Source: Clostridia bacterium (GTDB taxonomy: Bacteria > Bacillota > Clostridia > Christensenellales > Borkfalkiaceae). From it: a stretch of 64,000 nt of DNA. A model generated the notes under the pieces. That model had not been told where the DNA came from. It ran no database searches and saw only the letters and a program-made list of their open reading frames with translations. The DNA lies in NCBI GenBank assembly GCA_017508485.1, contig JAFVYV010000010.1, forward strand, positions 1 through 64,000. Direction: 5' to 3'. Below are positions 5,808 to 27,381 of the stretch, in pieces (position 1 is the stretch's first letter; every line of letters starts with the position of its first letter). A program made the position numbers and the translations under genes.

Positions 5808-7097
5808 ATGAACCCATTTAATGAGAAACCCGTTTCTATTTTAGGCAGTTTTCAAAACTGGAAACAACTTTATCCTAAAGCATATAACAAGTATGAAGTT
5901 GACCCTTATACTAAAACAAGAATTATTTTAATGAACGGTACGGAATTTGAAGCAAACTGGTTTTCACACCAACTTGCAAGGCACACCGACAACAACGATT
6001 TAAGAAGAGAATTAAGCATTACCCGTGCTATTGAAAAGCAACAACAAATGAAAATTTCGCTACTTAAACCGTGTAATGAAAGTCCACTAGAACACACTAT
6101 CGGCTACGAACAATTAGCCGTTGACCTAACTGCGGAACTTGCTAAAAGAGAGTGCGACTGTTACGTTAAAAAGGCGTTAGATTTTGCCTTACTTGAAGAC
6201 TTTGACCATTTGTATCGCTATGCTGATTTATTGCAAATGGAACAAGGCGTTATTGCAGAAAAGTTAGTTGGTAGATATACGGAAATTATGCCTGGTAGAC
6301 CAACAATTTCTCATCACAGGTTTAATAAAGATAACGTTAAACGTGGTATCAACAGTAAAACGGCTGATAAGCAAACTATATTATCTACTATGATAATTAC
6401 TGCTGCTGAACAACAAACAATGAACTATTATATGAATATAACAAACCTTGCGACCAACGACCTTTCAAGAAAGTTGTATGAAGAAATTTGTTTGGTTGAA
6501 GAAGAACACGTTACTCAATACGAATCTTTAATGGATTCTAACGCAACTTGGCTTGAAATGCTTTTATGGCACGAATATTGCGAGTGTTATTTGTATTGGT
6601 CTTGCTACGTTACGGAAACTGACGCTTATATTAAAGCATTGTGGGAAGAAAACTTGAACATTGAAATAGGTCATTTACACAAGGCTGTTGAACTTCTTAA
6701 AAAGTATGAACACAAAGATTATACTGAAGTTATACCTGACGGCACTTTCCCTGCGCCTATCTCTTTGCACGAAAATATTGAATACGTACGTGAGATTTTA
6801 GGCACAACCGTTCAATTTACCGGTCATTTAGAAGACTATATAAACGTAAACGAACTACCAAGTGATGCAAACTTTTTCCAATACCAAAAAATTATTAACC
6901 CTACTACGGAAATAGTTCCATCGCATTTAGTTATTGACGCGCATATTAGAAATTACGGCAAAGACTATAGGTATGAAGTTGCCCCTAATCCTATAAAGGA
7001 ACTTAGGTCAAGAACGGTTGATAACACTTCAGTTGGTAGAAAGCCTGATACTGCTTTTAGCACAGACTTTTTTTGCAACACTTGTAAACCTGAATAA
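5808..7097 (+). CDS. ferritin-like fold protein of unknown function
   Basis: A 429-residue soluble protein. Its middle part (about 95-310) is helical with repeated Glu and Glu-x-x-His motifs typical of diiron four-helix bundles: ESPLEHTIGYEQLAVDL, LLEDFDHLYRY, CLVEEEHVTQYE, LWHEYCECYLYW and NIEIGHLHKAVELL. Two such bundles or one enlarged bundle could be present. The N-terminal about 90 residues and the C-terminal about 100 residues match nothing I know; the C terminus ends in a CNTC pair that could bind metal or a thiol. AAAAGGAGA precedes the ATG, with a weak promoter (TTGAAT 5757, GATAAT 5782). It stands alone. A role in oxygen or iron handling is likely by fold only. Confidence 0.6.
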   Translation: MNPFNEKPVSILGSFQNWKQLYPKAYNKYEVDPYTKTRIILMNGTEFEANWFSHQLARHTDNNDLRRELSITRAIEKQQQMKISLLKPCNESPLEHTIGYEQLAVDLTAELAKRECDCYVKKALDFALLEDFDHLYRYADLLQMEQGVIAEKLVGRYTEIMPGRPTISHHRFNKDNVKRGINSKTADKQTILSTMIITAAEQQTMNYYMNITNLATNDLSRKLYEEICLVEEEHVTQYESLMDSNATWLEMLLWHEYCECYLYWSCYVTETDAYIKALWEENLNIEIGHLHKAVELLKKYEHKDYTEVIPDGTFPAPISLHENIEYVREILGTTVQFTGHLEDYINVNELPSDANFFQYQKIINPTTEIVPSHLVIDAHIRNYGKDYRYEVAPNPIKELRSRTVDNTSVGRKPDTAFSTDFFCNTCKPE

Positions 7098-7108
7098 ATT
7101 TTTGTAAA

Positions 7109-7138
7109 ACAAAAGGCGAAGATTTCTTCGCCTTTTTT
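7109..7138. terminator. bidirectional terminator after ferritin-like gene and purL
   Basis: AAAAGGCGAAG pairs with CTTCGCCTTTT around a short loop, with T on both outer sides. It ends the convergent ferritin-like gene and the ten-gene purine operon. Confidence 0.85.
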
Positions 7139-19334: not shown

Positions 19335-19372
19335 GAAAAAAATATCCCCACGTTAAACGTAGGGATATTTAT
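19335..19372 (-). terminator. terminator after the GH172 gene
   Basis: AAATATCCCTACG pairs with CGTGGGGATATTT (one G-T pair) followed by T residues on the minus strand. Confidence 0.8.
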
Positions 19373-19389
19373 TTTATTAACTAATGTTG

Positions 19390-22050
19390 TTATTTAACCG
19401 TTTCAATCGTGATTCCTTTAACATCAACTTCTCCACCCGTTTTGAATTGGTTGTAAATTCTTAAAGTAGTGTATTCTTTAGTTGTAGTAATTAAATAAGA
19501 AACTGTTCTCCAGCCGTTTGCATCTGCAGTTGCATTTGCATATAATTCATCAAGAATAACGTCTGTTGACGTATCAGAAGCTAATCTAGTCTTTATATTT
19601 TTACCATTTATTAACGTAGCACCGTCAGAAAATCTTAAGGTTATTGTAACTTTATAAGTGCCTGCAGTAACGTTTTTAAGACCAATATAATGTCCACCGG
19701 CAGCCTTATCTGAAGTTGAAGTTGTTTTATAGAACTTTTCTCCGTTTTCTTCAACTATTTCATAAGTTACACCACTACCCATTTTGTTTATATCTTTAAA
19801 ATAGGTGTCTCCTTCATAAGTAATTGCTCCACTAACTTCACCTTCTTCAACGTAATCAAAAGATAGAATACCATTAGTTTCTACAATTTCTGGTAAATTA
19901 GGAACTTTTGAAGAATCTCCTAATACAACACAGTCAAATATTGAGTGGTAGTTTGTTGAAGCAGAGTTTTTGCTATGAATATCAAACTTTAATACGTATT
20001 CACCTGCTTGAAGAGTTACGTCGTTAGTCGTTTGAACAACCTTTCTACCAAGTGCAGCATCTTCGTAAAGATCTACGTTAGATAATATTTTAGCCCCGTC
20101 TATATAAGCGTCTAACTTGCCAAAATTTTTACCCGTACCAAATACAAAGTTAAGTGGACCTTGGTAATCTTTTTTAACTAATAGTCTAAATTCAACAACG
20201 TTTGGTTTGTTGTCGCCGGTACTTCTAACCTTCATTAGACCGTATTGGTTGTTGCTAAAATATCTAGAATCGTACTTATAGTACATCATAAGATTCTTTG
20301 AGTAAAGAACCTTTAAATCTTCCCCTTCAATTACCGTATCACCTAACGCTTCAAAGTCGTTAATCTTTTCTTGAACAAAACCATAACGGAATTCTTCACC
20401 TGCTTTTGGCATATACGGCGTATAAGGGTCAACACCTTTTTCATCTAAATACCAAAATACTGTTGAACCATATCTAGAAACGCTATCTTGCGTCCAAGTT
20501 TTTTCAATTGCTGCTTCAAAACTCGTTTGGAAAGGAACGTTGTCTAAAATATGGAAACGAACGTTGTTGTAGTTACCTCTTGCTCCCAAGAAGTCACCAC
20601 CGTTCCAGTTTTGTGCGTGGAAGGCGTTATCAAATAAAGTTGGTTCACACCAAGCGTAACCAAAATAGTCTTCTGAACCTGTACCATAAGTAGAAGGGAA
20701 CTTTTCTCCGTCAACGAAGAACTTTTCATCACCTTCACCCCACCAACGGAAAGTATCGCCTTTTTTGAATACGTTAAGGTTAAAGCCTACAAAACGTCCT
20801 CTACCTTCTGTTTGTAAAGCAACGTAATCAATAAAACGTTCTGGTATTTCAGATTGAAGTCTATCTTGCATTGTCCATTTTGCGTGGAAACGACCAAGGT
20901 CGTCTATATTATCAGTAATAGGCGCTGTTTTAATTTCTACGTCAACACTATAATCAGTATCCATTAAGTTTTTAATAACGATTTTTGCACCCGTTCTATA
21001 AGGCATATAGAAAGCACTCCAGAACCAACCGTCTGCATTTTTACCCATAGGAACAGTTGTGTATTCTTGTCCACCCGGGTTCGCGAAGAAATCGCCAAGA
21101 GGAGCCCAAACTGACTCTTTAGTTTCTCCGTCCCAGAACATTGAAATTTCTAATTTTTGTAAAACTTCATAAAAATATACTTCTTTTAAAGGGTCATTTG
21201 CAATATCATCATTAAATTTTAACTTAAAAAACGTAATTGCATTTTGCTTACTTTCTTCAAAAATAGTAGTCGTTGCGTTTTTTGTAAGCGTAATCGTTTC
21301 ATCTAAAGCAGTAACTTCGTTATCATAAGTAGCGTTTAATGCACCACCCATTACGTCGTTTGCTTTTTCTAACGCAGTTTTATTTTTAGTAGTATAATCT
21401 TCAGTTATAGGTTCTACTGTTGCGCCATCTTCAAATAAACGGTATTGGAAGTGATAGTATTTACCCCAACCTTCTGCAAAAATAATCTTACAAGATTCGT
21501 TAAAGGTTACTGGAACGTAGTTGTTAAATCCTCTTGCATCAGTTTCATAAACCATATTGTCAAGCCCAGCAAACATACCTTTTGCACTTACGTAATCTTT
21601 AAATGGCATATCAATAGTAGGTGTAGTTGCGCCGTCAATATAAATTTTAATATGACCTGAACTTGGTGTTGCAGAGAAAGTTCTAACTAAAGTACCTGCA
21701 CCCTTAATATCAGCCGCTAAAATACTTCCGTCAGCGTAAGTTTCAATACAACCGTTTGCATCGTCGTTGTTTGAAAAACTTCTCGTTTCTCCATCAATGA
21801 ATTCGTTTCCCCACTCGATATATTTATCGGTTGCTTCGTCATATTTTGAATCCCTGTCATAAGAAGTTGCAGCTGCAGTTGATTCACCAACTTCTGGTAA
21901 AATTGCTAAACTTTTTACGTCAGTTAACAAACTAACGACCTCTTCATAACTATAGTGTTTTGCTTTTGGATCTTCAGGTTTGCAACCAACAAAACCTATT
22001 GCCGATAAAAGAAAAACTACTAAAGTTAAAATTGTTAATTTCTTTTTCAT
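19390..22050 (-). CDS. GH172 (DUF2961) glycoside hydrolase lipoprotein
   Basis: An 886-residue exported enzyme. The N terminus is a lipoprotein signal with lipobox GFVGC (Cys23). The central DUF2961/GH172 domain is shown by RWWGEGDEKFFVDGE and GTGSEDYFGYAWCEP (about residues 430-470), the family hallmark with its acidic residues, and YRTGAKIVIKN before it. The C-terminal about 120 residues look like a beta-sandwich carbohydrate-binding module. Characterised GH172 members act on D-arabinofuranosides (exo-acting on D-arabinan) or on fructofuranosyl linkages. It is last (in transcription order) of four colinear genes of which three are GH183. It has its own promoter (22096-22124) and terminator. 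No transporter is linked. Confidence 0.88.
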   Translation of the reverse strand: MKKKLTILTLVVFLLSAIGFVGCKPEDPKAKHYSYEEVVSLLTDVKSLAILPEVGESTAAATSYDRDSKYDEATDKYIEWGNEFIDGETRSFSNNDDANGCIETYADGSILAADIKGAGTLVRTFSATPSSGHIKIYIDGATTPTIDMPFKDYVSAKGMFAGLDNMVYETDARGFNNYVPVTFNESCKIIFAEGWGKYYHFQYRLFEDGATVEPITEDYTTKNKTALEKANDVMGGALNATYDNEVTALDETITLTKNATTTIFEESKQNAITFFKLKFNDDIANDPLKEVYFYEVLQKLEISMFWDGETKESVWAPLGDFFANPGGQEYTTVPMGKNADGWFWSAFYMPYRTGAKIVIKNLMDTDYSVDVEIKTAPITDNIDDLGRFHAKWTMQDRLQSEIPERFIDYVALQTEGRGRFVGFNLNVFKKGDTFRWWGEGDEKFFVDGEKFPSTYGTGSEDYFGYAWCEPTLFDNAFHAQNWNGGDFLGARGNYNNVRFHILDNVPFQTSFEAAIEKTWTQDSVSRYGSTVFWYLDEKGVDPYTPYMPKAGEEFRYGFVQEKINDFEALGDTVIEGEDLKVLYSKNLMMYYKYDSRYFSNNQYGLMKVRSTGDNKPNVVEFRLLVKKDYQGPLNFVFGTGKNFGKLDAYIDGAKILSNVDLYEDAALGRKVVQTTNDVTLQAGEYVLKFDIHSKNSASTNYHSIFDCVVLGDSSKVPNLPEIVETNGILSFDYVEEGEVSGAITYEGDTYFKDINKMGSGVTYEIVEENGEKFYKTTSTSDKAAGGHYIGLKNVTAGTYKVTITLRFSDGATLINGKNIKTRLASDTSTDVILDELYANATADANGWRTVSYLITTTKEYTTLRIYNQFKTGGEVDVKGITIETVK

Positions 22051-22095
22051 TAATCATTATCCCCTATAAAATTTTTTACATAATATAATATTTTA

Positions 22096-22124
22096 ATTAT
22101 AAATAATTAACAAACCTTAAGCAA
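22096..22124 (-). promoter_or_regulatory. promoter of the GH172 gene
   Basis: TTGCTT (22119-22124) and TATAAT (22096-22101) with a 17-base spacer on the minus strand. Confidence 0.6.
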
Positions 22125-22140
22125 GTAGTATATTTAAAAA

Positions 22141-22180
22141 TGACAAAATTTGTTAAATAAATAACAAGATTTGTTAAATA
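22141..22180 (-). repeat. two 20-bp direct repeats upstream of the GH172 promoter
   Basis: Minus-strand units ATTTAACAAATCTTGTTATT and ATTTAACAAATTTTGTCATT lie 21 bases apart, start to start (two helical turns). Each contains a partial palindrome AACAA-3-TTGTT. They sit just upstream of the -35 box, a position typical of activator or repressor sites. The AT richness of the region lowers certainty. Confidence 0.45.
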
Positions 22181-22222
22181 CTTTTTTAAAAAAAATAACT
22201 AAATTCACTCCCCTATTTTTTA

Positions 22223-22259
22223 TAAAAAAAAGACCTGAAAATTAACTTTCAGGTCTTTA
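22223..22259 (-). terminator. terminator after the cytoplasmic GH183 gene
   Basis: AAAGACCTGAAA pairs with TTTCAGGTCTTT and is followed by a T run on the minus strand. The stem core AGACCTGA recurs in the terminator at 25073-25107. Confidence 0.85.
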
Positions 22260-22274
22260 TAAATTATTACTTAA

Positions 22275-23462
22275 TTAGTCTTTAATAGTAATTTTACACT
22301 TACCAATATATGAACGGTAAATACCCTTTCTGTTCCATCTGCTGTAAACGAAGTAGAAAGTTTCACCATCGTTTTCTACCCATCTTTCGTTTAAGTATGC
22401 GCCGTAAAGGTTTGGTGCGTCAGTTGGGAATAAAATTGCTTGTGGTTCGCTCCAAACACCTGCGATATCATCAGCACATCTAACGCAAATTGGATTTCCT
22501 TTTGGAAGTGCGTGGCTAAAGTATGACATAACCCATTTTTTAGCAAATTTGTTGTAAACTACTGATAAGTTTCTGCAAGGTTCTTTAACGATAAAGCAAG
22601 CCTTGTTGTTATCTTTATCCCAAGTTTGGTTTTCAACTGAAGTTAGGTATTCGTAAGCATCAAAGTTTTCAAATCCTTCCTTCTTAACTCTACCAAGTTT
22701 AATACCTTCGTTACCAAAGCCGTAACCACCACGACCGAATACGTAAATATATCCGTCGCCACCGTCAATTGGGAAAATTTGAGTGAAGTGGTATGCTTCG
22801 TGCTTTTTCATATCAATATCAAAAGTTTCTTCATCGTTGATGCTTTCTTTATCAATATCAAGGTTAACTACCTTTTGAAGAACTTCTGGTGGGTTACCTG
22901 TTCCTTGGATACTTCTACCTTCTGCGTGGTCAACCCAAGTTAAATCAGGTACTCTTTTCCAAGTGATACCACCGTCAACCGACTTAATACAACCACCGTA
23001 GTTGTTTACGTCGGTATTTTTTACGTCGTCAGTTACTCTTGACATATAAAATGCGTAAATTGCATCGTTTACAATAATACCACCTGTGTAAATCTTAGTA
23101 GTTTCACCATCTAAAGATTCGTGAAGACTAAGTAGTGGGTTTTCAGCAGGTACGTCGTTTTTGAAACCATCTTTAGTCCAAAAACCATCTAATTTTAAGT
23201 TATCACTTAAATCATAGTCGGTAGTTACTGCGATTACGCCACTACGCCAGTTGTTTGTACCGTCAAACTTACCTAATTCATCACTAAAAGTGTCACCAAA
23301 AAGTAAGAACGTTCTGTTGTTTTTATAGTCGTTTATAGAAATACCTAAGTCCGTACCACCTACGTCGTTACGTCTTACAGTATCGTTGCCGGCATCGTCG
23401 TTATCACAAATAAATGAACCGATAATTTCAGCATGATTAAAGATAACTTCTTTCTTTTCCAT
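22275..23462 (-). CDS. GH183 (DUF4185) family protein without signal peptide
   Basis: A 395-residue member of the DUF4185 family, a beta-propeller family in which endo-D-arabinanases (GH183) have been described. Visible family segments: VGGTDLGISIN (about residues 33-43), LLFGDTFSDELG (about 50-61), NNWRSGVIAVTTDYDLS, GGETTKIYTGG-like EDGETTKIYTGG, LTWVDHAEG and YHFTQIFPI. Unlike its two neighbours it starts MEKKEVIFNHAEIIGSF with no export signal, so it should be cytoplasmic and could act on imported oligosaccharides. The start at 23462 has AAGGAGA upstream; the longer frame starts further upstream without a site. Own strong promoter with a palindrome over the -10 box. Confidence 0.82.
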   Translation of the reverse strand: MEKKEVIFNHAEIIGSFICDNDDAGNDTVRRNDVGGTDLGISINDYKNNRTFLLFGDTFSDELGKFDGTNNWRSGVIAVTTDYDLSDNLKLDGFWTKDGFKNDVPAENPLLSLHESLDGETTKIYTGGIIVNDAIYAFYMSRVTDDVKNTDVNNYGGCIKSVDGGITWKRVPDLTWVDHAEGRSIQGTGNPPEVLQKVVNLDIDKESINDEETFDIDMKKHEAYHFTQIFPIDGGDGYIYVFGRGGYGFGNEGIKLGRVKKEGFENFDAYEYLTSVENQTWDKDNNKACFIVKEPCRNLSVVYNKFAKKWVMSYFSHALPKGNPICVRCADDIAGVWSEPQAILFPTDAPNLYGAYLNERWVENDGETFYFVYSRWNRKGIYRSYIGKCKITIKD

Positions 23463-23519
23463 TATATTTCTCCTTATACAATTAGGTTTTAACACCTACA
23501 AAAAATTTTAATAATATAC

Positions 23520-23552
23520 GGGTATTATACCCTACAAGACAGTTATTGTCAA
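23520..23552 (-). promoter_or_regulatory. promoter with palindromic -10 region, GH183 gene
   Basis: TTGACA (23547-23552) and TATAAT (23524-23529) are spaced by 17 bases. GGGTAT and ATACCC (23520-23532) form a perfect inverted repeat around the -10 box, a likely repressor site. A second inverted pair, ACAGTT and AACTGT, flanks the -35 region (about 23539-23573). Confidence 0.65.
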
Positions 23553-23580
23553 TAATTGCTAACAAAAACTGTTTCTAATT

Positions 23581-24969
23581 TTACGCACTTACTTCAGTCT
23601 TAGTAATAGTTGCTTTTGCTACGTATGAACGATAAATGTTGTTGTCTGGTTCGTAAAAATCAGTCGTTTTATCATCAGCAAATCTAACGTATCTACTATA
23701 TACGAAGTAGTAAGTTAAACCGTCTGCGCTTAACCATTTTTCGTTTAGATATCCACCGTAAAGGTTTGTTCCTGATGGATTTTCAAGTAAAGTTATTGGC
23801 CTACTCCAACCTGAAGTTAGTTTTGAAGAATAACATACAACAAGTGGCGCACCTGAACCTGTAGTACAGTCAAGGAAAGACACCATCCACTTATCAATAT
23901 GCTTGTTGTAAATGATTGACATATTTGAAAGTGGTCTATTAATTATAAATACTGCTTTGTCTGGGTCTGAAAGCCACTTTTGTCCATCAGCGCCAAAACC
24001 TGCAAAGTATTCATACTTTGAAAAATCTTCAAAATCTTCTATCTTTACTCTACCAAGTTTGATACCAGAAGTTCTATATCCACCACGGCCTAAAAGGTAA
24101 ACGTAACCGTCCCCTTGACCCATTATTGGATATATTTGAGTAAAGTAATAACCTTGTCTATTTGTAATATCAACTGCGTTTTCAACGTAAGTGCCGTCAA
24201 TATCGTAGTTAACTAGTTCAGCAATTTTTGTTGCACTTAAACCTTCGCCAGATTCTCCACCTTCAGTTGGGTGAGTGTTGCCTTCTGAGTGGTCAACCCA
24301 AGTTAAATCCCACACTCTTTCCCAAGTAGTGCCACCGTCAAGTGACTTAATGCAACTGCCGTAGTTGTTTGAGTCTTTACGTTCTGATTGAGTGTTACCA
24401 AGACTTCTTCTTGAAACGTAGAATACGTAAATAGTACCGTTAATTTCTATACCACCTGTATAGATTTTTGTAGTTTCTCCACCAACTTGTACAACAACGT
24501 CGTCTTCAACCCTATCGGCTTCTTGAGTTCTATGTTGGCTCCAAAGTGGGCTTTCTGCAATTATATTTTCGTTAAAACCTTCACTTGTCCAAAAACCGTC
24601 TAAAGTTAAGTTGTTGCTTAAATCGTAGTCGTTTGTTATACCGATAACGCCACTACGCCAGTTGTTTTTACCGTCGGCAAAACCCCATTCGTTTGAAAAA
24701 GTATCTCCAAAAAGTAATAAGGTTTTGTTTGTGCTTAAGTTTACTGAAATACCTAAGTCCGTTCCACCTACGTCAAAACGGGTAATTGTATCGTTGTTTG
24801 CATCATCATCGTGGCCTAAAAAAGAACCTATCGTTTCCGCCCTGTTAAAGGTATAGTTATATTTCTTTTCCGGTGGTGTCGGTGGTGGTGTTGGTCCACA
24901 ACCAAATACCGCTACACTTGTTAATAACAGTAGTGTAGAAAACAGCATACATATTAATTTTTTCATCAT
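23581..24969 (-). CDS. GH183 (DUF4185) family lipoprotein
   Basis: A 462-residue exported paralog of the neighbouring DUF4185 proteins. The N terminus is a lipoprotein signal ending VFGC (Cys24) followed by a Pro/Thr linker (PTPPPTPPEKK). Family segments: VGGTDLGISVN, LLLFGDTFSNEWG, NNWRSGVIGITNDYDLS, GGETTKIYTGG, WVDHSEG and YYFTQIYPIMGQGDG. The acidic residues in GTDLG and FGDTF are kept in all three paralogs, so catalysis is probably intact. The start is one of two adjacent ATG codons after GAGG. It should sit on the outer face of the membrane. Own promoter at 24999-25026. Confidence 0.83.
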   Translation of the reverse strand: MMKKLICMLFSTLLLLTSVAVFGCGPTPPPTPPEKKYNYTFNRAETIGSFLGHDDDANNDTITRFDVGGTDLGISVNLSTNKTLLLFGDTFSNEWGFADGKNNWRSGVIGITNDYDLSNNLTLDGFWTSEGFNENIIAESPLWSQHRTQEADRVEDDVVVQVGGETTKIYTGGIEINGTIYVFYVSRRSLGNTQSERKDSNNYGSCIKSLDGGTTWERVWDLTWVDHSEGNTHPTEGGESGEGLSATKIAELVNYDIDGTYVENAVDITNRQGYYFTQIYPIMGQGDGYVYLLGRGGYRTSGIKLGRVKIEDFEDFSKYEYFAGFGADGQKWLSDPDKAVFIINRPLSNMSIIYNKHIDKWMVSFLDCTTGSGAPLVVCYSSKLTSGWSRPITLLENPSGTNLYGGYLNEKWLSADGLTYYFVYSRYVRFADDKTTDFYEPDNNIYRSYVAKATITKTEVSA

Positions 24970-24998
24970 TTTTCCTCTTGTTTAATTTTTCCTTGACT

Positions 24999-25026
24999 AT
25001 TTTACCATAAATTGCCATTTTTACAA
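24999..25026 (-). promoter_or_regulatory. promoter of the second GH183 gene
   Basis: TTGTAA (25021-25026) and TAAAAT (24999-25004) with a 16-base spacer on the minus strand. Confidence 0.55.
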
Positions 25027-25072
25027 AATGAAATCACCTACTTTTTGATAAAAATATTTTTTTATTTTTGTA

Positions 25073-25107
25073 TAAAAAAAAGACCTGAAAAAAATCAGGT
25101 CTTTTTT
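25073..25107 (-). terminator. terminator after the third GH183 gene
   Basis: AAAAGACCTGA pairs with TCAGGTCTTTT, followed by a T run on the minus strand. The stem is nearly the same as that at 22223-22259, suggesting duplication of gene plus flank. Confidence 0.85.
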
Positions 25108-25139
25108 AACTTTTTTATAACTTTAATAATAGTTTTTAA

Positions 25140-26681
25140 TTATTCTTGTACTAAAGTTCTATCTACAGTTGCTTTTGCAATGTATGAACGGTAAACTGGT
25201 TGGTTCTTATCCCATCTACTATATACGAAGTAGTAAGTTTGACCAAAGTTTTCAACCCACATATCGTTTAGGTATCCACCGTATAAGTTTTTAGTTTCAC
25301 CACTGTTCGTTAATAAAGTAACCGGTTCACTCCAGTTTAATAAGTCATCTGAGTATGCAATTACTAATGGAGCACCAGAACCTTCTGAACAGTCAAGGTA
25401 AGACATTACCCACTTATTGATATAGTCGTTATAAACAACTGACATGTTAGAAAGGTTTCTTTCTTCTACCATCACTACGTCGTCAGCGTGTTCAATACCC
25501 TTTTCCCAAACGCCACCGTTTTCTTTACTTGTTAAATATTCGTATTCTGCAAATACTTCAATATTTTCTTCTTTAACTCTTGCCAAAGCAACACCTGAAC
25601 TTCTGTAACCACCACGGCCGAACATATAAACGTAACCATCACCTGCTACTAATGGATAAATTTGTGTGAAGTGGAAACCTACACGCTTGTTGATATCCAT
25701 ATCAACACCGTTTACCATATTGTTTTCATCAGCAACGTTGTAACCTGCTGAAAAACCAATAATTTCTTGATTTACTAATTCTTGAATATATACTGCGTGT
25801 GTACCAGACCATTTAGGATTTGTTGCGTTTGTATTTCTATCATCATAACCAAATTCTGGGTGGAAATAACCTGCGTTCCAAGCTAAATCTCCTTCTGGAG
25901 TTGATAAGAAACCAGGGTCTCTTGTAGTTGGGTCTGAATTTAACCATTCATAGTGTGCTGGACTTAAACCGTGGTTTGCCCAAGTTAAATCCCATACTCT
26001 TTCCCAAGTAGTACCACCGTCAAGTGATTTAATACAACCACCGTAGTTGTTGTAGTTTGGACGAGATGGTTTTTCAGTTTGTTCGTGTCTTGAAACGTAG
26101 AATGCGTAAATTACACCGTTTACTTCACAACCACCTGTGTAAATCTTTGTGGTTTCGCCTTGGTTTTCAGTATCGCCAAGAGAGAAAATGATAGCATCTG
26201 CCATTTCGCCTTCTTCACGATTAGTTTCAGTTTTGAAACCATCTTTCGTCCAGAAAGAATTTAAGATGATGTTGTTTTCTAAGTTGTAGTCTTGTGATTT
26301 TGCTACAACACCACAACGCCATTCACCCCTACAGTTTTGTGCAGGGAAAGTATCACCAAATAATAATAAAGTGTATGGGTCACCTTGTGATTTAACGTTG
26401 ATTGATAAACCTAAGTCAGTACCACCTACAAAAAATCTTTTTAAAGTATCGTTACCAGCTTTGTCGTTATCACAAATAAATGAACCGATTACTTCTGCAG
26501 GATTAAAGGTTGGAATGTACTCTAAGTCATCATTTTCAATAGTTGGTGCTTTTTGACTTTCTTTATATGTTGCAAAGTCAATTCCTTTAGGTTGGTCTGG
26601 ACCGCAACCAATGAAAGCAAAACAACCTACCGTCATAATCAATGATGATAGCATACAAATAATTCTTTTGAAGTTCTTCAT
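25140..26681 (-). CDS. GH183 (DUF4185) family lipoprotein, long form
   Basis: A 513-residue exported DUF4185 protein. The lipoprotein signal ends FIGC (Cys26). Family segments are VGGTDLGLSIN, LLLFGDTFPAQN, CRGEWRCGVVAKSQDYNLE, GETTKIYTGG, TWANHGLSP and FHFTQIYPLVAGDGYVYMFG. It is longer than its paralogs by an insertion of about 60 residues between the LTWANHG and FHFTQIYP blocks (about residues 255-330), on the predicted substrate face; this may change specificity. The start at 26681 has AAGGAGA and follows the promoter at 26716-26744; the longer open frame starts within the promoter and is rejected. First gene of the glycan cluster, downstream of the ssrA-linked RNAs. Confidence 0.83.
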   Translation of the reverse strand: MKNFKRIICMLSSLIMTVGCFAFIGCGPDQPKGIDFATYKESQKAPTIENDDLEYIPTFNPAEVIGSFICDNDKAGNDTLKRFFVGGTDLGLSINVKSQGDPYTLLLFGDTFPAQNCRGEWRCGVVAKSQDYNLENNIILNSFWTKDGFKTETNREEGEMADAIIFSLGDTENQGETTKIYTGGCEVNGVIYAFYVSRHEQTEKPSRPNYNNYGGCIKSLDGGTTWERVWDLTWANHGLSPAHYEWLNSDPTTRDPGFLSTPEGDLAWNAGYFHPEFGYDDRNTNATNPKWSGTHAVYIQELVNQEIIGFSAGYNVADENNMVNGVDMDINKRVGFHFTQIYPLVAGDGYVYMFGRGGYRSSGVALARVKEENIEVFAEYEYLTSKENGGVWEKGIEHADDVVMVEERNLSNMSVVYNDYINKWVMSYLDCSEGSGAPLVIAYSDDLLNWSEPVTLLTNSGETKNLYGGYLNDMWVENFGQTYYFVYSRWDKNQPVYRSYIAKATVDRTLVQE

Positions 26682-26715
26682 TGCAAAAATCTCCTTATAC
26701 ATATCTATTGATAGG

Positions 26716-26744
26716 ATTATAACATAATTTTTAAATAATAACAA
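26716..26744 (-). promoter_or_regulatory. promoter of the long GH183 gene
   Basis: TTGTTA (26739-26744) and TATAAT (26716-26721) with a 17-base spacer. The sequence CTTGTTATT-ATTTAA over the -35 box also occurs in the repeats before the GH172 gene. Confidence 0.6.
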
Positions 26745-27031: not shown

Positions 27032-27381
27032 TGGTGGAGATGCAGGGACTTGCACCCTGGTCTTAAATGCTTCAAATCAGTTTTCTACATTTTAGTCAGT
27101 AGTTTATCCTCTTAAAAAGTTCAGTTACCGACAACTAACACTTTTTCGCAGGTTAATTAGAACCTTTATAAAGCCTTAACCACAACTAAATAAAAGTACC
27201 CTATCTAGGTTGATGCCCAGTTTAACCCAATAGGCGAAGTTAAAAAGGACATGCTGCGTTAATTAGGCAGCAAAAGCAAGCTTATTATTGTTTGCATTTA
27301 AATTTAAGTTTCCGTTTTTACGTAGCCGAGCCTACGAATGCTTACTGAAAATTCACACCCAATCGAATCTAAAACACCCCC
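27032..27381 (-). ncRNA. ssrA: tmRNA (ssrA)
   Basis: The 5' end GGGGGTGTTTTAGATTCGA and the 3' end with T arm AGGGTGCAAGTCCCT and GCATCTCCACCA give the alanine-tRNA-like domain; CCA is encoded. The tag frame at 27296-27264 reads ANNNKLAFAA then TAA, a normal clostridial degradation tag. About 350 nt. It rescues stalled ribosomes with SmpB, whose gene lies at 29641-30096 on the same strand. RNase R, the partner in non-stop mRNA decay, is next to smpB. Confidence 0.97.

Follow-up and report, generated by a model that had tools for sequence, protein, structure and literature searches.

A dispersed and greatly expanded set of GH183 genes in a Clostridia genus points to a candidate D-arabinan-utilisation system

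D-arabinan is a rare polymer on which mycobacterial walls depend, and there is demand for D-arabinan-cleaving enzymes as tools. In the actinobacterium Microbacterium arabinogalactanolyticum, a single compact D-arabinan polysaccharide utilisation locus (EndoMA1/2, ExoMA1/2) combines exported GH183 endo-enzymes and a cytoplasmic GH172 exo-enzyme with a GH116, a sugar ABC importer and D-arabinose catabolic genes for an isomerase and kinase route, and has no SusCD (PMC10509167). PUL42 of Dysgonomonas gadei (DgGH172a-c, DgGH4185a,b), a Bacteroidota polysaccharide utilisation locus, also pairs GH172 with GH183 on D-arabinan (PMC10115798). The epibiont M. amalyticus, a proposed feeder on the arabinogalactan of its Gordonia host, possesses a surface GH183 lipoprotein and a cytoplasmic GH172 (PMC10115798). 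Mycobacterial GH183 enzymes (Rv3707c, Rv1754c and MSMEG enzymes) act on the organism's own wall and are found in two to five copies per genome.

Members of the same two families occur in the window, which is the whole 64,000-nucleotide stretch analysed here (contig JAFVYV010000010.1 of the Clostridia bacterium assembly GCA_017508485.1, family Borkfalkiaceae), and they probably belong to a greatly expanded system for D-arabinan use whose genes are dispersed. An earlier note on this DNA had described four colinear genes, one GH172 and three GH183, and all four open reading frames were found at that place and on that strand (Table 1). Profile searches bear out the families far beyond chance, with 212 bits for the GH172 (PF11175; Pfam cut-off 27) and 174, 162 and 155 bits for the GH183 trio (PF13810; Pfam cut-off 39.5). 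By eye, the GH172 and the GH183 proteins at 23581-24969 and 25140-26744 carry at the N-terminus a signal of lipoprotein type that ends in a Cys, and the GH183 at 22275-23495 has no signal at its N-terminus, as the earlier note had read them. The principal GH172 region spans residues 298-534, with a second, separate match closer to the N-terminus, and its catalytic Glu pair is retained as GEGDE...GTGSED with the 21-residue spacing of E233/E254 in DgGH172c (GEGDEKFFVDGEKFPSTYGTGSED). Compared with solved structures, this GH172 is nearest in the PDB to 4kq7 (99.5 bits), with ExoMA1 at 75 bits and alphaFFase1 at 74 bits.

Table 1. Coordinates of the GH172/GH183 genes and of transcription-related signals in the window
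Feature	Coordinates	Strand	Basis
GH172 (DUF2961) lipoprotein, 886 aa	19390..22050	-	profile match, catalytic Glu pair, nearest-PDB comparison
GH183 (DUF4185), no export signal, predicted cytoplasmic	22275..23462 (ORF from GTG 23495; probable ATG 23462)	-	profile match, alignment
GH183 (DUF4185) lipoprotein, 462 aa; nucleophile D71, acid/base D89, third acid = N	23581..24969	-	profile match, AF2 model
GH183 (DUF4185) lipoprotein	25140..26681 (ORF from TTG 26744; probable ATG 26681)	-	profile match, alignment
Terminator-like hairpin 3' of GH172	19340..19370	-	hairpin scan
Terminator-like hairpin between cytoplasmic GH183 and GH172	22229..22258	-	hairpin scan
Terminator-like hairpin 3' of fourth gene	25076..25107	- (palindromic; reported on +)	hairpin scan
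Perfect sigma-70-type promoter match (TTGACA-17-TATAAT) before cytoplasmic GH183	23524..23552	-	12/12

The cluster lies among a purine operon with a ZTP riboswitch, a tmRNA and met genes. The earlier remark that no transporter or regulator is linked is thus true at this spot, where the neighbours are housekeeping genes, but wrong for the genome as a whole. The claim that every gene has its own promoter is plausible: strong terminator-like hairpins separate most of the cluster genes and the second gene has one perfect promoter match, with promoter-like matches overall close in number to those in shuffled sequence. The same gene order is found in the sister species, where it spans a contig break, and the GC content and codon use of the cluster agree with the remainder of the window. 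Contamination or recent transfer was rejected on this agreement, on the synteny in the second species and on a reported contamination of 0; a viral origin was rejected after a scan of viral contigs returned no relatives, the one hit being an unannotated phage record at 24% identity. The cluster stands directly 3' of the tmRNA gene (27032-27381; 135 bits with Rfam, no call from ARAGORN), a frequent insertion site, and no integrase was seen. At 7070-7138, adjoining the end of a convergent gene pair, an Rfam match to the Salmonella sRNA STnc40 (45.6 bits, cut-off 45) is likely a chance match of terminator type.

All three window GH183 proteins retain the nucleophile Asp (D33) and acid/base Asp (D51) of EndoMA1, as GGTD-LG and FGD-TF, and carry Asn at the position of its third carboxylate (E243). 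The retention of catalytic acids, which the earlier note had made a test of its reading, therefore stands for this Asp pair and for the Glu pair of the GH172, but not for the third, supporting acid. Across an alignment, the Asp pair is retained in 61 of 67 GH183 sequences, and the third position is Asn or Ser in most paralogues of the genus and Glu in most GH183 from other taxa. E243 is essential in EndoMA1, but DgGH4185b is active without a third acid; consequently, the third carboxylate is not family-defining for GH183, and the exact specificity of the trio may differ. The structure prediction that the earlier note had proposed fits the EndoMA1 fold: the AF2 model of the 462-residue lipoprotein (pLDDT 86.6, pTM 0.86) is a five-bladed beta-propeller that superposes on EndoMA1 (8ic1) with a Z of 40.4 and 2.0 A across 317 residues, the second-best match being AraH2 of M. 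tuberculosis (Z 22.9). The trio could in principle have moved off D-arabinan to a related furanoside, such as an alpha-D-fructofuranoside or a differently linked arabinan, leaving other proteins as the true D-arabinan enzymes of the genome. Its place within a genus-specific clade and its change from the Glu of most outside GH183 to Asn would fit such a shift, which is nonetheless unlikely given both catalytic Asp residues, the EndoMA1 fold, the activity of DgGH4185b and the presence of Asn in many paralogues, where it may be a lineage trait. In a deep GH183 subgroup (L021:7699-10095, L029:3631-6027, L031:9239-15946, L075), the nucleophile Asp is replaced by Gly (GGAGGGYM), yet members score 190-200 bits where scanned; judging from the sequences, these proteins are probably non-hydrolytic or use a different mechanism.

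The window trio belongs to a far larger set. The gut-type draft genome of the window (G000; 1.11 Mb, 17 contigs, 86.9% complete), read for CAZymes in targeted stretches, has 16 PF13810 matches in 15 proteins by profile search, and the sister species (Clostridiales SIG381, the one congener searched) has 20 matches, or ~17 proteins after joining pieces. No match to PF13810 was found in 57 of the 61 relatives; at the level of the class this holds for 384 of 391 genomes, and at that of the order for 388 of 396. Two GH183 clades are confined to the genus in the tree, one holding the window trio together with an 866-aa lipoprotein and very large exported proteins of up to 1927 aa, and the other holding GH183 genes of which several are paired with small exported proteins with weak CBM matches. 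Between the two species, dN/dS is below 0.5 in all gene pairs tested, indicating purifying selection. Several exported GH183 have a dS of 0.5-0.96 versus 0.10-0.23 for met, isomerase and kinase genes, and their dS is 3- to 9-fold that of neighbouring housekeeping genes. The raised dS, which involves window positions 22275-26681 and L024 and L022 versus L033, L032 and L030, suggests replacement by divergent alleles. In other herbivore-gut Clostridia (L063:75-9893, L075), GH183 domains lie on very large open reading frames of up to 3272 aa.

Further candidate pathway genes, comprising GH172, GH183, ABC importer and D-arabinose genes, are scattered over several contigs of the genome and not gathered in one locus. 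Contig C8 encodes a solute-binding lipoprotein and, further along, two signal-less GH183, followed after 110 bp by a 194-aa isomerase and after another 3 bp by a kinase; this row of four is present in both species of the genus, the first GH183 of the sister being cut by a contig end. The isomerase is a homologue of arabinose-5-phosphate isomerase without CBS domains (53% identity to 5uqi, 1.4e-58; 45% to KdsD) whose SIS domain retains the equivalents of the catalytic Lys, His and Glu of KdsD (K59, H88, E111, E152), and it falls below the NCBIfam cut-offs because the CBS half is missing. On contig C9, sugar-ABC permeases lie immediately ahead of a GH183 lipoprotein, and adjacency tentatively assigns them, with the C8 binding protein, to the arabinan system. 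A signal-less GH172 on contig C4 (L043:5493-6578) has 49% identity to ExoMA1 and scores 352 bits against it, compared with 107-134 bits for other solved GH172 and 107 for alphaFFase1, placing it, at the sequence level, clearly nearer ExoMA1 than alphaFFase1. A GH116 exo-beta-D-arabinofuranosidase was not found in G000, G001 or G011, so beta-capped arabinan would not be fully digestible by a known enzyme. No fucI was found in the same three genomes, and a fucI route in the genus was rejected on that ground. On contig C2, a GDSL esterase with distant similarity to acetylxylan esterase adjoins a GH183, hinting at an acylated substrate.

In other Firmicutes and in mollicute relatives, corresponding genes are gathered in compact loci. 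A survey of neighbours in related genomes, which the earlier note had proposed, retrieved them with the GH183 alignment and then tblastn (L041, L058, L071-L074, L114; some incomplete at contig ends or short of one part). Their order is binding protein, permeases, GH172, a large exported protein and one or more GH183, and they also carry LacI-type regulators alongside the ABC importer and catabolic genes. The isomerase and kinase adjoin the compact locus in G011, in one Clostridia member from roe-deer caecum and in an Acholeplasmatales MAG, while the Izemoplasma locus has fucI (1024 bits vs 775) and a ribulokinase in their place and a Haloplasma MAG locus has a ribulokinase. L-fucose isomerase acts also on D-arabinose. 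This place of the locus thus holds one or the other of two unrelated catabolic modules, both of which indicate D-arabinose as the product. In a distant family, G279 carries two GH172, a GH3, a GH116-like gene, a GH183, ABC genes, a PfkB kinase and a SIS protein together (mostly by eye). Among the 61 relatives, an isomerase of at least 60% identity and a kinase of at least 55% are confined to three of the four relatives that hold GH183 (Fisher p 1e-4), and the fourth holder has fucI.

The exported protein conserved in the compact loci, whose L071 member has no Pfam match, combines in a model (pLDDT 77, pTM 0.60) a Big_2-like domain and a C-terminal anchor with a beta-sandwich that resembles the CBM by which EndoMA1 binds D-arabinan (Z 12.7, with CBM4-type modules scoring equally); on this model, a surface glycan-binding protein is plausible. 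Exported proteins of L023, L026, L035, L040, L041, L069, L071 and L073 have in common a C-terminal G-C-x-[GS], a transmembrane stretch and a K/R-rich end, e.g. GGCGSVIGTAGAIVSVLSLAGAVVVLKKKK. No NCBIfam CTERM model scored above cut-off in the eight proteins scanned, and the tail may possibly be a Cys-based sorting signal. The G011 isomerase on contig C1 (L040:1374-2051) is frameshifted, either truly or by assembly error, and the copy on C25 is intact. A 66-67% homologue of the isomerase also lies outside a GH183 context, in a PTS-like operon (L113:7135-10999, by eye) of G357, a genome in which the search for GH183 gave no match; this hints that Clostridia may use D-arabinose by way of a PTS.

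The C8 kinase is called a ribokinase (TIGR02152, 334 bits; NCBIfam cut-off 299.65) but has Val at the ribose-contact position N14. E. coli ribokinase has poor activity on D-arabinose, its N14 contacts ribose and not arabinose in simulation, and an engineered A98G lid substitution brings an order-of-magnitude gain on D-arabinose (PMC9604405). Human ribokinase has been used in vitro to produce D-arabinose-5-phosphate (A5P). With the G032 kinase left out of the comparison, position 14 is Val or Met in all six locus kinases, Asn in three solved ribokinases and mostly Asn in unlinked relatives (exceptions: Ile in G018 and G033, Ala in G050); position 98 is Gly in two locus kinases, and the kinase of the window genome retains Ala98. 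The tree places all six locus kinases in one weakly supported group, and the N14 change may therefore have arisen once. The above-cut-off ribokinase call, together with a luxS and a nucleosidase gene seen by eye 3' of the kinase, would suit a kinase and isomerase that serve ribose or another pentose and neighbour GH183 by accident. This is improbable, however, as the pair stands next to GH183 or GH172 genes in several taxa far removed from one another, co-occurs with GH183 among relatives and is replaced elsewhere by fucI and ribulokinase, while the kinase lacks the conserved ribose-contact Asn.

From the families, catalytic residues, gene adjacency, two-species conservation and expansion seen in sequences or models, we infer activities, localisation, import and direction of flux as follows. 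Surface GH183 lipoproteins, acting as endo-D-arabinanases, and the GH172 lipoprotein would trim an external alpha-D-arabinofuranose polymer, and a sugar ABC importer would take up the oligosaccharides. Cytoplasmic GH183s and the ExoMA1-like GH172 would then release D-arabinose, which the ribokinase-family kinase would convert to A5P and the CBS-less isomerase to ribulose-5-phosphate for the pentose phosphate pathway. Points that weigh against this reading are the Asn in the trio, the lack of a detected GH116, the location of importer and regulator genes outside the window, the weak D-arabinose activity of E. coli ribokinase, the Ala98 of the genome's own kinase and an isomerase equilibrium on the side of A5P. 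It is highly improbable that the genus instead makes its own D-arabinose surface polymer, remodelled by GH183 and GH172 as proposed for mycobacteria, with the isomerase running from ribulose-5-phosphate to A5P: the isomerase equilibrium favours A5P and several GH183 sit on large exported proteins, but no Emb arabinosyltransferase (PF04602) was found in G000, G001, G011 or G032, making degradation the better fit, the importer, regulators and fucI with ribulokinase (Izemoplasma) of the compact loci are all catabolic, and enzymes of these families in the cytoplasm are hard to reconcile with a role in remodelling the wall.

Degradation of D-arabinan accordingly agrees with the direction proposed in the earlier note and with its SusCD-free, Firmicute-style system, mostly through evidence beyond the window (the ExoMA1 homologue, isomerase, kinase, ABC genes and compact loci). 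Its suggestion of a new target glycan is not supported, as the sugar released would, judging from the catabolic genes, be ordinary D-arabinose, and it lacked the genome-wide expansion (~15 GH183 in 1.1 Mb) and the dispersed locus of which the window is a fragment. A bolder and rather doubtful proposal is that the genus, with its reduced genome of ~1.1-1.2 Mb, has specialised obligately, perhaps as an epibiont or scavenger, on bacteria that bear D-arabinan or on some unrecognised source of it in herbivore guts, with ~15-17 GH183 of new specificity and an undescribed kinase-first pathway.

The predicted system would extend D-arabinan breakdown to Clostridia, a group not previously linked to this glycan, and to mollicute relatives, and it supplies an extensive natural set of diverged GH183 enzymes and a concrete, assayable D-arabinose route. 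It also raises the question of which D-arabinan supply is strong enough to sustain a genus that devotes ~15 genes to this polymer in a genome of 1.1 Mb. The literature searched yielded no D-arabinan loci in Firmicutes and no such kinase-isomerase route, an absence that is no proof of novelty. Relative to the D. gadei locus, the window genome has a Gram-positive layout with an ABC importer and lipoproteins. M. amalyticus belongs outside the Firmicutes, and descriptions of it include no comparable expansion. Mycobacterial GH183 have a fold in common with the window GH183. Compared with M. arabinogalactanolyticum, the window genome has ~15 scattered GH183, no detected GH116 and a kinase-first route with an A5P isomerase. 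The most fitting description is a Gram-positive D-arabinan system like that of Microbacterium, but one that sits in a Firmicute, is dispersed and massively expanded, and would handle D-arabinose by a kinase-first route.
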